NCBI GenBank assembly: GCA_003562845.1
Contig: PWTL01000112.1
Coordinates: 1 to 43,472, forward strand
Reading direction: 5' to 3'
DNA from: Candidatus Acetothermia bacterium
GTDB taxonomy: Bacteria > Bipolaricaulota > Bipolaricaulia > Bipolaricaulales > Bipolaricaulaceae
Length of the DNA: 43,472 bases
A program made the position numbers and the translations under genes. Below are positions 2,092 through 26,148 of this stretch, one piece after another (position 1 is the stretch's first letter; each line of letters starts with the position of its first letter). Below the pieces are notes generated by a model that ran no database searches, was not told the DNA's origin, and saw nothing but the letters and a program-made list of their open reading frames with translations.

Positions 2092-2644
2092 CGGGCCCCC
2101 TCCGCCAGCGCCGGGGCCAACCGGCGAGCCGCTTCGCCGAGGCGTCGGGCGCAGGCCAGCCCTCTCCCCGCCCAAGCCACGCGAGCAGCCCGCTGGGGCA
2201 CCTTCTCCCACAGGGCGTCCAGGACTACACGCACTGCCAGCCACGGTACGGAGAGCTCCTCAAGACCCTGGACCAGCCGCTCCGACTCCAGGTCCACTGC
2301 CAGGGAGTCTAGTCCCAGCCGGGCTTTCTGTTCCGGGGGAGCCAGCTCCTCCGCCGTACAGATGGGGCCTACCTCGGCCTCAGGGAGAGCATGTTGTGCA
2401 CGGGCCAGCATCTCCGGAGAAGGGTGGTGCCCCCCTGTGCCTCGTACGCTCGAGGCTAAGATCAGCGTCCCTGGGGTGAGCTGCGCCCGCAGCCCCCCGG
2501 AGAAACCAACGACGAGCGCCGCCGCGGGCGGCCGCCGCCGCAGTCGAGCTGACACCTCCGGCCACCTCTGCGCCTGCAGGCCCACGCAGGCTTGGGGCCC
2601 GCGGACGAAACAGAGCTCCGTTCTCAGGGCGGCGAGCACGATCA
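2088..2644 (-). CDS. hpnG: HpnG-like hopanoid-associated nucleoside phosphorylase family protein
   Basis: MIVLAALRTEL... and AVDLESERLVQGLEELSVPWLAVRVVLD resemble the PNP/UDP phosphorylase superfamily; sits between hpnH and ispG/shc. ATGA overlaps at both ends. Confidence 0.75.
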
Positions 2645-3643
2645 TCTCTTCACCTTCCGCGTGAGGAGTTTCCAGGGGTGCACAGCTGCGTCCACCGCAC
2701 TGGCCGGTTCGAACCCGGAGTGGAGCATGCACCCGGCGCAGCGGGGGTCCTTTCCGGGGCCATACTTCTCCCAAAGCTCCGGCTCCAGGAGTTCGCTCAG
2801 GTCGTCCGTGTGGCGATCGGCGATCAAGTAGCAGGGGAGCCGCCAGCCGAGCACCGTGCGGGTGGGCACCGCCCATGCCGAGCAAGGGTAGTCGCGCTCC
2901 CCTTTGAGGAAGTCGAGGAACAAAGGGTTGTCGTACAGAGGGAGGTTTGTCCCGTGGTCGAGAAGGTCGCGGAAGATGCGCTGCGACTCTGTCCGGTTCA
3001 AGAAGAGCTCCCGCTCGGGGACCGCTTCGTAGGCATACCCCGGCGACAGCATCAGCCCCTCCACTCCCAGTTCCGTGAGGCGCCCGAACAAGCCTTTGAG
3101 ATCGCCGACGTCTGAACCGTGGAACACCGTGGTGTTAGTTGCGACACGGAATCCGCGTTTCACGGCCTCAGAGATGGCCTGCTCCACCTCGCGGTACGCT
3201 CCCTCATAACCGGTGACCTGATCATGGACGGCTTCGCTTCCGTCGACGTGGACCACCAGGCACAGCCTCCGGTGTCGGGGGAGGCGGTCCAGCTGTTCGC
3301 GTAGAAGGAGGCCGTTGGTGCACAGGAACACCCACCGGCGGTCCTCCACCAGGCCGCCGACCATGTCCCCGATCTCGGGGTGCAGGAGCGGTTCCCCTCC
3401 GGAGAGCGACACCACCGGTGCATCGGCGTCGGCGGCGATTGTGAGCGCCTCCGTTGCAGGCATGCGTACGTCCATGTGCTCTGCGTACTCCCGTACCCGT
3501 CCGCACCCGGCGCAGCGGAGATTGCACGTTTCCAAAGGCTCGAGCATGAGCACGATCGGGGACAGCCGTCCGCGGCGAGCCCTACGGTGGACCCGCCACA
3601 GGTGACGGGCCAGTTCCCAACTCATCTCCCACGGTCGTCCCAT
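2642..3643 (-). CDS. hpnH: Radical SAM adenosyl-hopene transferase HpnH
   Basis: CNLRCAGCGRVREY radical SAM CxxxCxxC, SGGEPLLHPEI, C-terminal CAGCMLHSGFEPA cluster typical of HpnH. Confidence 0.93.
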   Translation of the reverse strand: MGRPWEMSWELARHLWRVHRRARRGRLSPIVLMLEPLETCNLRCAGCGRVREYAEHMDVRMPATEALTIAADADAPVVSLSGGEPLLHPEIGDMVGGLVEDRRWVFLCTNGLLLREQLDRLPRHRRLCLVVHVDGSEAVHDQVTGYEGAYREVEQAISEAVKRGFRVATNTTVFHGSDVGDLKGLFGRLTELGVEGLMLSPGYAYEAVPERELFLNRTESQRIFRDLLDHGTNLPLYDNPLFLDFLKGERDYPCSAWAVPTRTVLGWRLPCYLIADRHTDDLSELLEPELWEKYGPGKDPRCAGCMLHSGFEPASAVDAAVHPWKLLTRKVKR

Positions 3644-3644
3644 A

Positions 3645-4622
3645 TCAGGCCTCCCTCGCTGCCAGTGCCGCGGTCAGCTGGGCGAACGCGCGGCGGCAGT
3701 CATCCTGCCAAGGAAGAGGCGCGAGTTCTCCCCTTGCTGCCTCCAGCCGCCGCTTGACCTCGCTGCGGCAACGGGAACGAACGGCGAGCTCCTCCAGTCG
3801 GCGGAGCACTTGTTCCTTGCGAACAGGAATCTGACGGCAGCGTTGCCAGAGCTGCGGATCCTCCGCGGCGGCGAGCGCCAAGGGGTAAGTCAACTTGCCC
3901 TCTTCCAGGTCGCTTCCCACCGGCTTTCCAGTGAGCTCGGGGTCTCCCCACAGGCCCAACATGTCGTCTTGGATTTGGAATGCCAGGCCCAACTCCTCGC
4001 CCGCGCGGCGATGTGCGGCGGCCAGAACGACCTCTCCGGCCGCCAGCGCCCCCAGCTCCAGGGAGCACCCCAGCAAGGCACCCGTCTTGAGCCGGGCCAT
4101 CTCCAGGTACGCCTCCGTATCCCCCCCAGCCCGCTGCAGCTTGAGGTCCAGGACTTGGCCCTCGATCATTCGCTGGGTGCCCACGAGCAATGCCTCCAGC
4201 GCTCTGTGCACCAAGTCCTCCACCAACGGAGCCTGTTGGGCTGTCTGCAGAGCGAGGACCAAGAGAGCATCGCCAGCGTTGATCGCCTGTTCTGTTCCGA
4301 ACACCTTCCACGCCGTGGCGCGCCCCCGCCGCAGCTCGTCGCCGTCCTGAATGTCGTCGTGAACAAGGGAGAACACGTGGACAAGCTCCAGCGCCGTGGC
4401 CAGGGGGAGCACTCCTTCCGAGGCTCCGCCCAACGCCTCACAAGTGAGGCAAGCGAGAGAGGGGCGCAGCAGTTTTCCGCCGACGCCCGGGCTCGGCTCA
4501 CCGTCGGCTCCGGCGAGCCCCAGAGGATAGCGGATCAAGGGCGCCAGCGGGCCCTGGGCGGGAGCAGCCCTTTGCAGACTGTCCACGATCGGCTCGCGGT
4601 ACCGGCGCAATATGTCAGACAC
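3645..4622 (-). CDS. Polyprenyl diphosphate synthase (FPP/GGPP synthase family)
   Basis: First Asp-rich motif LVHDDIQDGDELRRGRATAWKVFG, second FQIQDDMLGLWGDPELTGKP; GGKLLRP. Confidence 0.93.
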   Translation of the reverse strand: MSDILRRYREPIVDSLQRAAPAQGPLAPLIRYPLGLAGADGEPSPGVGGKLLRPSLACLTCEALGGASEGVLPLATALELVHVFSLVHDDIQDGDELRRGRATAWKVFGTEQAINAGDALLVLALQTAQQAPLVEDLVHRALEALLVGTQRMIEGQVLDLKLQRAGGDTEAYLEMARLKTGALLGCSLELGALAAGEVVLAAAHRRAGEELGLAFQIQDDMLGLWGDPELTGKPVGSDLEEGKLTYPLALAAAEDPQLWQRCRQIPVRKEQVLRRLEELAVRSRCRSEVKRRLEAARGELAPLPWQDDCRRAFAQLTAALAAREA

Positions 4623-22619: not shown

Positions 22620-25580
22620 GTGGTTCGTCGAGTGGATCGCTACCTGTGGGGGGAGTTGCTGGGCCCGTTCGGCGTGGCGTTGCTGGCGTTCCTCGTGTTC
22701 ATCGGGCTGGAGCTGGTGCTGTCCCTGTCGGACGTGGTTCTGGCCCGAGGGGTAGGTGCGGGGACAATGCTGCGCCTTCTGTCGTTGAAACTGCCCAGCC
22801 TGCTCACGTTGGCCCTGCCTGCTGGTGTCCTGCTGGCCACGTTCCTCGCGTTGGGGCGGCTGGTGTCGGACAGGGAACTCCTCGCTCTGCAGGCGGTGGG
22901 ATATTCGGTGCGGCGTTTGCTGGTCCCGTTTGTGGTGTTCGGGGTCGCGGTGAGCGGCTTGGCGTACATGTTGGGCGAGGTAGTTGTCCCCGCAGCGGAG
23001 TCGGCCTACCGCCAAGAGCTCCTGACTGTCCTGTACAGAGGGGAGGTGCCGGCTCTGCAGGAGCACGTCTTCTTCCGCGGACAGGAAGGCGAGCTGTACT
23101 ATATCCAGAGCTACGAACAAGAGCGGGCGTTGGGGGTGGTCGTCTACGACCTCCAGGGCCGTCTATTCCCGCCGCAAGGGAGATTTCCCACTGTGCTTAC
23201 CGCCGAACAGGGGCGGCTCAGGGGGGGAGATCTGGCTCTGCAAGAGGGGCGCCTGTTCCGCTTCGGTCCCGATGGGGCGTTGGAGGAGATGGCGCGGTTC
23301 GAGGCTCTCACTCTGGAGGTGGGCGAGGATGTCCAGCAAGCAGTCCTCGGAGGGAAAACGCCGGGGGAGATGTCCCTTCGCGAGCTGTCCGAGCGGATAG
23401 AGCTGTTCGAGCGTTCAGGGTTGGATCCGCGTAATCTTGTGGTGGAGTACCACTCCAAGCTCGCGGTCGTCGCTGCGGCTGCAGTGTTCGCCCTCCTCGG
23501 CGCACCATTGGGAGTTCTCTTGGGGCGGCGCGGCCGAGCAGCCGCGGCCATTGCCGGCTTTGCGCTGGTGGCGGGTGCGCAAGGGATGATGATCTGGTCG
23601 CGAACGATGGCCCGACGAGGGATGTTGCCCGCGTCGCTTGGGGGGTGGCTTCCCCACATGGTTCTGGTGGTACTGGGGTTGACGCTCCTTGTGTTTACCG
23701 ACCGGCGGAGGATGCGCCGTGTGGGGGTAGTGCTGGTGGCCCTGGCGGTGGGGACGGTGGGCTGGGCGGCGGAGTGGCCATTTTCGGAGATCGTCGCCGA
23801 GCGGATGGTCCTCGGTCCGAAGGCAAGCTCCTTCACCGCACACGGGGTTACTGCTGTGCTTGCAGAGTACGAGCTCACTGCCGGCGCCTTGCAGGGGGTG
23901 CGGGAGGAAGAGGGGTGGCGCGTGCAGGCGGAGGACGCCCGCCTGTTCGGACCGGACATGGAGCTTGAGGCGGCGCACATCTCTGCCTCGTTCGACCGCG
24001 AGGGGCGACTCAGAGCCGCTGTAGCCGCTGATTTTCGAGGGACCTCCGCGTTTACGGGGCCGGAGAAGGAGGAGCTCCTGGTCTTTCACGGCGAGCGGGC
24101 ACAGGCGACCTTCTCCGGCGGGGAACTGGTGCGGCTCGACGCTGATGAAGTGCGCTTTACCACCTGTCCCTGCCTGGAGGGCGCTCCGTACCGTGTCGAC
24201 GCGTCGCGGTTTGTGCTTCTCCCCGAGCGCTGGCTGTACGCCAGTGGGGTCACGGTGAGATCCTTCGGAGTGCGCGTCGGATGGTTGCCGGTGTACGCTG
24301 CGAGGCTGGGAGAGGAGGCCTCCCCGTTGTTCCCGCAGGTGGGACGGGAAGGGGAGCACTGGTTTTTGCGTTGGCACGTCCCGTGGGCCCTGGGGGAGAT
24401 CCTGTGGGGGGCGGTGGGCATCACGTGGTTTCCCTGGGACGGACGAGCCCTACCGACACTGGATGTGCTGTGGGAGGGAGGGGACCTCCGCCTTGCCTCC
24501 GGCAGGGCGTCGGTGACGGCGCGGGGAGAAGCCCCGTGGGGCGCCTGGCGCGTGGGAGCGGACCTGATAGGCGAGCGCCTGTCTGCCGAAGCGCGGGGCG
24601 ATGTGGGCCCGTGGAACTGGTCGTTTCTGTGGGGGCGGGTGGAAGAGGACGGCGAGCTCGTGTACGAGCGGGCACCGCACGTCACCCTGAGGGGCACAGC
24701 CGGACAGTGGCTTGGAGGCGCACTGCGGGTACAGGTGGAGACAGGTCGGTTCCGGGAAGCCGGCCGTGGGGGAACCCGCAGCGGTGCCGCCGTATCGTGG
24801 ACTCGCAGCTGGGAGGTGGGACCGCTTACGCTCACCAACCCTTGGAGTACAGCACTGGACATGTACGAGGAAGGGCATCGCATCGCCTGGGCGGTCGGCC
24901 CGGCCCTCAATGTAGGTGGACTGCAGCTTTCCTACCGGGGGCGTGTGACTGTGGGTCGCTCTCCGTTCGACTTCGACGCCGCGCCGCCGGAGAGCCGCCT
25001 GGAGGCAACTCTCAGCGGGAGCGCTGAGGACTGGAGCCAGCAGGTGACCTTGGGGTGGGACCTGGTCTCCGGCGCGTCAGTTGCGGGCACGTGGGCTCTG
25101 CGCGGACCGGGGACGAAGGTGGACCTTACGTTCACCCCGATTCCGCTGGAGTTCAGCCGTGCCGCGGGAGAGTTTTCCCGGTCCGGTGAAGACTTGTCAG
25201 TGACCCTGCGGGGAGGGGTGAAGTTGCAGCCGCTTGAGTGGGAGGACGTACTGTTTCGGGGCGCGTGGTCCCCAGAGGGAGGTTCGGCAACTGTGGCGCT
25301 GCGGGTTGGACTGGACCCGCTCGCCGTCAACCGCTCCGCGGGGGAGGTGTCCTGGGCCGTGGGCGGCGACTGGAGCGTGCACGCCTGGGGGGAGTTCGAC
25401 TGGGTTGCGGCAAGGTGGGTGCAGCTCGGGGCCGGGGTGAGCCGCCTCCTGCAGGGATGCCTGCGTATCGGGGTCCAGGCCGATCTTACGGGGCTGCGGA
25501 TCGCAGTGGACGTCCCGGCATTTGCCGAGGCGCGGGTCGTGTTCCGTCCGCAGGACGAGGGGCTGCGCATCGGGGGTTAA
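22620..25580 (+). CDS. LptF/LptG-family permease fused to LptA-like and LptD-like regions (986 aa)
   Basis: N-terminal MVRRVDRYLWGELLGPFGVALLAFLVFIGLELVL...LGRLVSDRELLALQAVGYSVRRLLVP is YjgP/YjgQ (LptF/G). After RRRMRR a hydrophobic VGVVLVALAVGTVGWAAEW segment, then LptA/OstA-like sequence and DEVRFTTCPCLEGAPYRVDASRFVLLPERWLYASGVTVRSFGVRVGWLPVYAARLGEE as at the LptD N-domain/barrel junction, then about 400 aa of alternating beta-barrel-like sequence. GTG start. Confidence 0.85.
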   Translation: MVRRVDRYLWGELLGPFGVALLAFLVFIGLELVLSLSDVVLARGVGAGTMLRLLSLKLPSLLTLALPAGVLLATFLALGRLVSDRELLALQAVGYSVRRLLVPFVVFGVAVSGLAYMLGEVVVPAAESAYRQELLTVLYRGEVPALQEHVFFRGQEGELYYIQSYEQERALGVVVYDLQGRLFPPQGRFPTVLTAEQGRLRGGDLALQEGRLFRFGPDGALEEMARFEALTLEVGEDVQQAVLGGKTPGEMSLRELSERIELFERSGLDPRNLVVEYHSKLAVVAAAAVFALLGAPLGVLLGRRGRAAAAIAGFALVAGAQGMMIWSRTMARRGMLPASLGGWLPHMVLVVLGLTLLVFTDRRRMRRVGVVLVALAVGTVGWAAEWPFSEIVAERMVLGPKASSFTAHGVTAVLAEYELTAGALQGVREEEGWRVQAEDARLFGPDMELEAAHISASFDREGRLRAAVAADFRGTSAFTGPEKEELLVFHGERAQATFSGGELVRLDADEVRFTTCPCLEGAPYRVDASRFVLLPERWLYASGVTVRSFGVRVGWLPVYAARLGEEASPLFPQVGREGEHWFLRWHVPWALGEILWGAVGITWFPWDGRALPTLDVLWEGGDLRLASGRASVTARGEAPWGAWRVGADLIGERLSAEARGDVGPWNWSFLWGRVEEDGELVYERAPHVTLRGTAGQWLGGALRVQVETGRFREAGRGGTRSGAAVSWTRSWEVGPLTLTNPWSTALDMYEEGHRIAWAVGPALNVGGLQLSYRGRVTVGRSPFDFDAAPPESRLEATLSGSAEDWSQQVTLGWDLVSGASVAGTWALRGPGTKVDLTFTPIPLEFSRAAGEFSRSGEDLSVTLRGGVKLQPLEWEDVLFRGAWSPEGGSATVALRVGLDPLAVNRSAGEVSWAVGGDWSVHAWGEFDWVAARWVQLGAGVSRLLQGCLRIGVQADLTGLRIAVDVPAFAEARVVFRPQDEGLRIGG

Positions 25581-25605: not shown

Positions 25606-26148
25606 ATGAAGAGGACGCGTATCCCGGACTTGCTGACTGCGAGCCGGGGTTTCGTCGGGCTGGCGATCTTGGCGATGATCCCCGCGGGGGCGGATGCTTT
25701 GCCCTCGGTGTTGTGGCTGCTTCTTCTCGGGTGGACCACTGACCTTCTGGACGGGCGCTTGGCCCGCAGGTTCGATCTGTTGCCGTCGTGGATTGGAGAG
25801 CACGAGTTTGAGTTCGACATGTCCATGGTCTTCTGTTCTGCCGTCTACCTGGTCGCGACCGGCTTGGTGCCCCGGGGACCGGGCACAGTGTACCTTGTGC
25901 TAGCGTGTCTGTTGGCGCTTCTCTCCTACAGCCGTGCCGGGCACTTCCTCAAGTTCAAGGCGCTGACGATGGCCTTGGCCGTACCGTGGGTGTTCGGCCC
26001 ATTCGTCCTTGCCTACATACGTGGAGAACAAACAGTCGCCTACATGGGCCTCCTGTGGATAGCACTAGGGCTGCTCTTTGACTGGCGTCGTTTTACTGGA
26101 GTGGTGGAGGACTTCCTGGACGGCGCGCGCAGCTTCCTGCGGCGGTGA
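25606..26148 (+). CDS. CDP-alcohol phosphatidyltransferase-like membrane protein (variant active-site motif)
   Basis: IPDLLTASRGFVGLAIL...TTDLLDGRLARRFDLLPSWIGEHEFEFD; TM helices. ATG 25606 preceded by TATAAT. Confidence 0.72.
   Translation: MKRTRIPDLLTASRGFVGLAILAMIPAGADALPSVLWLLLLGWTTDLLDGRLARRFDLLPSWIGEHEFEFDMSMVFCSAVYLVATGLVPRGPGTVYLVLACLLALLSYSRAGHFLKFKALTMALAVPWVFGPFVLAYIRGEQTVAYMGLLWIALGLLFDWRRFTGVVEDFLDGARSFLRR

Follow-up and report, generated by a model that had tools for sequence, protein, structure and literature searches.

How does a bacterium use a gene that reads as an Lpt-type inner-membrane permease at one end and as the outer-membrane protein LptD at the other? The question is raised by a 43,472-nucleotide window, contig PWTL01000112.1 of a Candidatus Acetothermia bacterium (a lineage now named Candidatus Bipolaricaulota, PMC6092417), in which 986 codons run uninterrupted from a GTG start. 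A preliminary description of the window had reported this as one frame, which is indeed open throughout, and had read it as an LptF/G permease joined to an OstA-like stretch and to LptD. The fusion is real, and its features are as follows (window coordinates; a slash within a motif marks a predicted cut).

22620 to 25580, + strand: whole LptF-LptD fusion ORF, 986 aa, GTG start
22638 to 23690, + strand: LptF/LptG permease domain, residues 7-357, made up of six TM helices and a periplasmic domain
23700 to 23768, + strand: junction (residues 361-383, DRRRMRRVGVVLVALAVGTVGWA), a signal-peptide-like internal segment, putatively cleaved
within 23700 to 23768, + strand: candidate signal peptidase I site GWA/AE, after residue 383
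23769 to 24152, + strand: LptD N-terminal beta-taco (OstA-like), residues ~384-511
24144 to 24299, + strand: LptD signature region (residues 509-560) with TTCPC; C516/C518 align with C173 of E. coli LptD
24240 to 25577, + strand: LptD beta-barrel region (residues ~541-986), from strand alternation and LptD profile matches; low model confidence
25458 to 25460, + strand: C947, a near-invariant late-strand cysteine placed like C724/C725 of E. coli LptD
25606 to 26148, + strand: CDP-alcohol phosphatidyltransferase-like neighbour, 25 nt downstream of the fusion

The nearest named relative that we found, in a one-protein scan of genome contigs, is a Candidatus Acetothermia MAG with 71% identity across the entire length of the protein. 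The gene was found in 53 of 60 related genomes. In a wider count across Bipolaricaulota the permease exceeded its cut-off in 90 of 100 genomes, and in 77 of these 90 the frame stays open over 860 aa or longer, among them two single-contig genomes (G005 and G015). The preliminary description had proposed a search for the same junction in related genomes, and had named separate genes in all close relatives as one observation that would speak against it; the junction recurs in these 77 genomes, and close relatives with an intact gene all have it fused. The 13 genomes below 860 aa comprise two true splits (G050 and G056, both of family f5), four frames that reach contig ends (G009, G060, G099 and G045), six partial matches, and one frame (G077) that stops just within the joint. 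At this last locus (L092, contig C1 of G077, 2487-3806) LptF terminates just within the junction segment, with VRRAVPFLGGLAAG and then a stop, there is no LptD part, and a convergent clpP adjoins the shortened lptF; this is either a deletion or a misassembly. In G008, G014, G019 and G025 each half is on a contig of its own. That an assembly or sequencing artefact fused two adjacent genes can be dismissed with near certainty: the host is a fragmented draft (1.45 Mb in 127 contigs) and f5 relatives do carry the two genes 2 nt apart, but a fusion that is present across the phylum, single-contig genomes included, is not an assembly error.

The identity of the first half is straightforward. PF03739 (LptF_LptG) matches residues 7-357 with E=3.2e-78 and 263.7 bits (cut-off 27.9), over positions 1-351 of a profile of 353, and solved LptF chains are its best sequence relatives. 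Scores for TIGR04407 (155.9, cut-off 230) and TIGR04408 (152.2, cut-off 240) both lie far below the cut-offs for LptF and LptG orthologues, so that the permease half reads as a member of the LptF/LptG family rather than as an orthologue of either. There is a single LptF/G gene per genome, and in the window genome the fusion is the only full PF03739 gene; a second, weak match there, considered as a candidate LptG, was judged from its sequence to be a MacB-like ABC permease instead.

The second half is far more diverged. Taken alone, the C-terminal half of the window protein matches no Pfam family, the LptD barrel (PF04453) included, and single-sequence searches with it returned nothing useful; profiles were needed. 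Members of an alignment of 44 relatives were therefore scanned singly against Pfam and NCBIfam. LptD_N is matched by eight of the 44 (best 2e-10) and PF04453 by one (0.004), while the NCBIfam models for LptA and LptD reach 1.1e-6 and 6.6e-5 among the same relatives. DUF3769 (PF12600) is weakly matched by six of the 44 (best 0.006); the likeness to cyanobacterial DUF3769 proteins consists of this weak match only, and that Pfam model contains no permease. A profile built from the 15 most distant members of the alignment finds LptD in the PDB (8h1r, 4.8e-5), and when a profile of distant relatives is compared by hhalign with E. coli LptD (E=7.6e-6) the alignment is collinear over preprotein residues 1-229, spanning the signal peptide and the beta-taco, and places TTCxC on C173. 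Foldseek with a model of the C-terminal half returns LptD as its top PDB match (5e-5), followed by LptA. This AlphaFold model, made from a two-row alignment, is confident in the beta-taco and not in the barrel, because only two sequences were usable; a full-length model made the same way was worthless (mean pLDDT 34). The alternation of residues expected of beta-strands, of which an LptD barrel has 26, is nonetheless far beyond chance in residues 541-986 (z=5.2 alone, 8.2 when averaged across 29 relatives; the LptF half, as a control, gives -1.0).

The protein has only three cysteines, C516, C518 and C947, all in the C-terminal half and all kept in the 44 aligned homologues, two rows of which have no aligned residue at 947. 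By sequence this layout is of the LptD type, with cysteines at the end of the beta-taco and near the last strands (C173 and C724/C725 in E. coli) that could form a putative disulphide, and it would fit export of this half. Taken together, these results support the assignment of residues ~384-986 to a homologue of LptD with a beta-taco, a TTCxC motif and a barrel-like region. Some other kind of outer-membrane barrel that has an OstA-like neck and is no LptD seems very unlikely: LptD is matched only weakly by sequence, and the window protein itself yields no family by single-sequence search, but the profiles, the motif, the pattern of cysteines and the Foldseek results lead to LptD or LptA, and nothing else is comparably significant. 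The domain reading in the preliminary description was thus sound, and the C-terminus does not appear to fold as something else, which it had named as a possible objection. Its 'LptA-like' stretch is OstA-like as stated; it is LptD's own N-terminal beta-taco, and nothing in the chain points to a further protein, LptA. Fusions of families f3, f4, f6 and f8 (L038, L039, L043, L044, L046 and L047) have a longer OstA region than the window's family, of about 1.5-2 beta-taco units.

What, then, lies between the two halves? In every fused relative the last LptF helix is followed by basic residues, a short hydrophobic core and then small residues; the n-region is Arg-rich, and some relatives have a core of no more than 12 residues. 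Distant families show textbook signal peptidase sites (AWA/QE, VRA/QE, AFA/QD), compared with which the window's own GWA is weaker. A strict [AVSGT]xA site is found at the joint in 37 of 42 proteins, whereas three ordinary LptF helices, taken as controls, are followed by one in 0, 25 and 29 of 42; the two higher control values are those of TM3 and TM5 in these Ala-rich proteins, and so the count by itself is modest evidence. In the window's family residues 368-383 show the lowest conservation in the protein (0.42, against 0.82 before and 0.67 after) together with changes in length, a pattern that would fit a cleaved signal peptide more than a working helix. In the hhalign comparison the joint falls on the signal peptide of E. 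coli LptD itself. A predicted signal-like segment, such as a polyprotein with an internal signal peptide would have, is therefore present where the two halves meet, and signal peptidase I genes are present as well. In both candidates in the window genome (contig C49, 17961-18707; contig C106, 1872-2618) the PF10502 match is interrupted by an insert of ~280 bases.

Only the two genomes G050 and G056, of the distant family f5, have separate, adjacent lptF and lptD genes. There the TAA stop of lptF is followed, after two bases, by the GTG that starts lptD, which begins with a hydrophobic signal-like segment, and the gene order is contiguous: lptC-like, lptB, lptF, lptD. A tree of LptF did not choose between this split as the ancestral state and a later fission. 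The LptC-like protein of f5 (L078, 10686-11588, - strand) has 301 aa and seemingly two beta-taco stretches, with weak LptC and OstA_2 matches; it is perhaps LptC and LptA in one.

The f5 start codon bears on another way in which LptD might be made from the fused gene, namely by translation initiated internally at an in-frame start near the joint. Many in-frame GTG, TTG and ATG codons do occur there in these GC-rich genomes, and one in the window has a weak Shine-Dalgarno-like match. No position is conserved, though; three relatives (L018, L024 and L034) have no such codon in the tested stretch, a Shine-Dalgarno-like motif is found in almost none, and internal initiation would not need a frame kept open across the phylum. 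Because internal starts are not shared among the fused genes, it was rejected as a conserved mechanism, and we hold it to be highly improbable.

Other parts of an Lpt system are encoded elsewhere in these genomes. LptB is above cut-off in 46 of 60 genomes and adjoins lptF in f5, and a gene of the LptC family sits between pyrG and lptB. PF06835 (LptC) is matched by four distant members (4e-10 to 2e-12); the copy of the window genome, on contig C33, was recognised by a home-made profile and by its position. In the window's family this LptC-like protein starts like a secreted protein, with A-x-A/Q-type sites when judged by eye, and may thus act as LptA does. A home-made beta-taco profile, which does recognise this family, detected no third beta-taco protein, and so no separate LptA, in the window genome, a search that a very divergent LptA could escape; Pfam LptD_N was unusable for it because that model is blind to the family's own beta-taco. 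Omp85 is present in 55 of 60 genomes.

In six genomes that have no permease, LptB above cut-off (Fisher 4e-4) and the LptC-like gene (3e-5) are missing too; these values are inflated by kinship because the six stem from only two lineages. The permease is missing in G037, G039, G083 and G084 (genus g14) and in G041, G044, G047 and G053 (f5); in the six of these eight that were tested, LptB above cut-off and the LptC-like gene are missing as well, although Omp85 is kept. These may be losses of Lpt in diderms.

We consider it likely, from the sequence features described above, that the product of the gene is a polyprotein, part of a minimal lipid exporter of the Lpt type, and that cleavage at the internal signal peptide yields LptF and LptD. 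In the LptF family the C-terminus is cytoplasmic. With the LptF half placed in the inner membrane in this way, the C-terminal half needs one more membrane-inserting segment to reach the periplasm, and the joint supplies one. The internal signal peptide would route the C-terminal half through Sec, and signal peptidase I would cut after about residue 383 and free LptD, which would fold as beta-taco and barrel, acquire its disulphide between TTCxC and C947 in the periplasm, and be handed to the BamA homologue for insertion into the outer membrane. With no further LptF/G gene detected, LptF would pair with itself, and the homodimer would be driven by LptB2; the single LptC-like beta-taco protein encoded beside lptB would form the bridge over which lipid passes from LptF to LptD. 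One frame would yield LptD and LptF in equal amount, setting the stoichiometry of pump to pore, and a symmetric permease might, speculatively, permit two bridges per pump.

Alternatively, the chain may remain uncut, one polypeptide in both membranes serving as pump, bridge and pore: from the permease, with the hydrophobic segment as a seventh TM helix, it would continue by way of the beta-taco to the barrel, as a permanent tether and lipid slide. Such a protein would not be absurd, as MlaD of Veillonella parvula, according to fractionation, combines an anchor in the inner membrane with a barrel in the outer (PMC10665443). It too is a fusion from a non-proteobacterial diderm, in which an inner-membrane part for lipid transport is joined to such a barrel; it differs in belonging to the MCE family, in its alpha-helical spacer, and in being reported as a full-length protein for which an internal signal peptide is not described in the part of that report drawn on here (PMC10665443). 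Retention of the fusion through almost the whole phylum and the imperfect cleavage motif of the window protein would also suit an uncut chain. Against it, the joint is the least conserved segment of the protein and variable in length, the cores of some relatives, at 12 residues, are short for a TM helix, and the segment aligns with an ordinary LptD signal peptide. Moreover, no more than about 10 residues separate the segment from the start of the beta-taco, which at about 130 aa would span an estimated 5-6 nm (about 4.8 angstrom per strand), less than the usual periplasm, and the LptC bridge protein is still retained. If the chain were uncut, the outer membrane would be tethered to the inner across a phylum that apparently has no LPS. 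We regard this as unlikely. Between the options offered in the preliminary description, both of them sensible, a polyprotein or a permanent covalent bridge from inner to outer membrane, the signal-peptide-like joint and its alignment with an ordinary LptD N-terminus thus favour the former and make the latter less likely.

A processed polyprotein of this general design is known from respiration. Bradyrhizobium FbcH, the cytochrome b/c1 polyprotein, likewise joins a multi-helix inner-membrane protein through an in-frame internal signal peptide to an exported protein, and is cut in two; it consists of respiratory proteins, and its product remains at the inner membrane. The parts themselves are familiar from LptB2FGC-A-DE of E. 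coli, which shares the LptF/G permease family, the LptB ATPase, the LptC family and an LptD with beta-taco, barrel, TTC-type motif and late cysteine. Unlike in E. coli, LptF and LptD are here in one ORF, one permease gene replaces two, and separate LptA was not detected; a simpler Lpt machine is suggested, of LptB, one LptC-like protein and LptF-LptD. LptE, the plug of LptD, is poorly conserved. Borrelia burgdorferi, a diderm that has no LPS, also has Lpt homologues and lacks LptE, but as six separate proteins that include LptF, LptG and LptA, and its LptD is free of cysteines (PMC10353723). No published LptF-LptD fusion was found in the open-access literature searched, in which most subscription journals are absent, in agreement with the preliminary description, which knew of no example; within that literature the arrangement is new. 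A 2022 survey of outer-membrane genes, in which Bipolaricaulota are not named, stated that atypical diderms never have lptD (PMC8871954), and a 2018 paper on Bipolaricaulis reported no LPS-associated genes and an envelope type that was hard to decide (PMC6092417). An LptD that shares one ORF with LptF and has diverged beyond the reach of Pfam is the type of gene that such surveys overlook, and the fusion offers a recognisable lipid route to the outer membrane for a whole diderm phylum in which LPS biosynthesis is undetected.

The question of what an Lpt system carries without LPS thereby becomes testable. LpxC was found in none of 60 genomes, in a search in which control genomes gave matches; judged by this marker of the lipid A pathway, the system does not appear to be a canonical LPS-exporting Lpt, and its cargo is probably something other than LPS. 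The CDP-alcohol phosphatidyltransferase-like gene lies immediately 3' of the fusion in all f1 relatives whose flanking sequence is long enough, and also in one genome of f6 (L047). It is possibly a co-transcribed lipid enzyme, and its position is a hint towards phospholipid as cargo. Its motif reads DxxDGxxAR-x9/10-GEH[ED]FxxDM, as against the usual G-x3-D-x3-D spacing.
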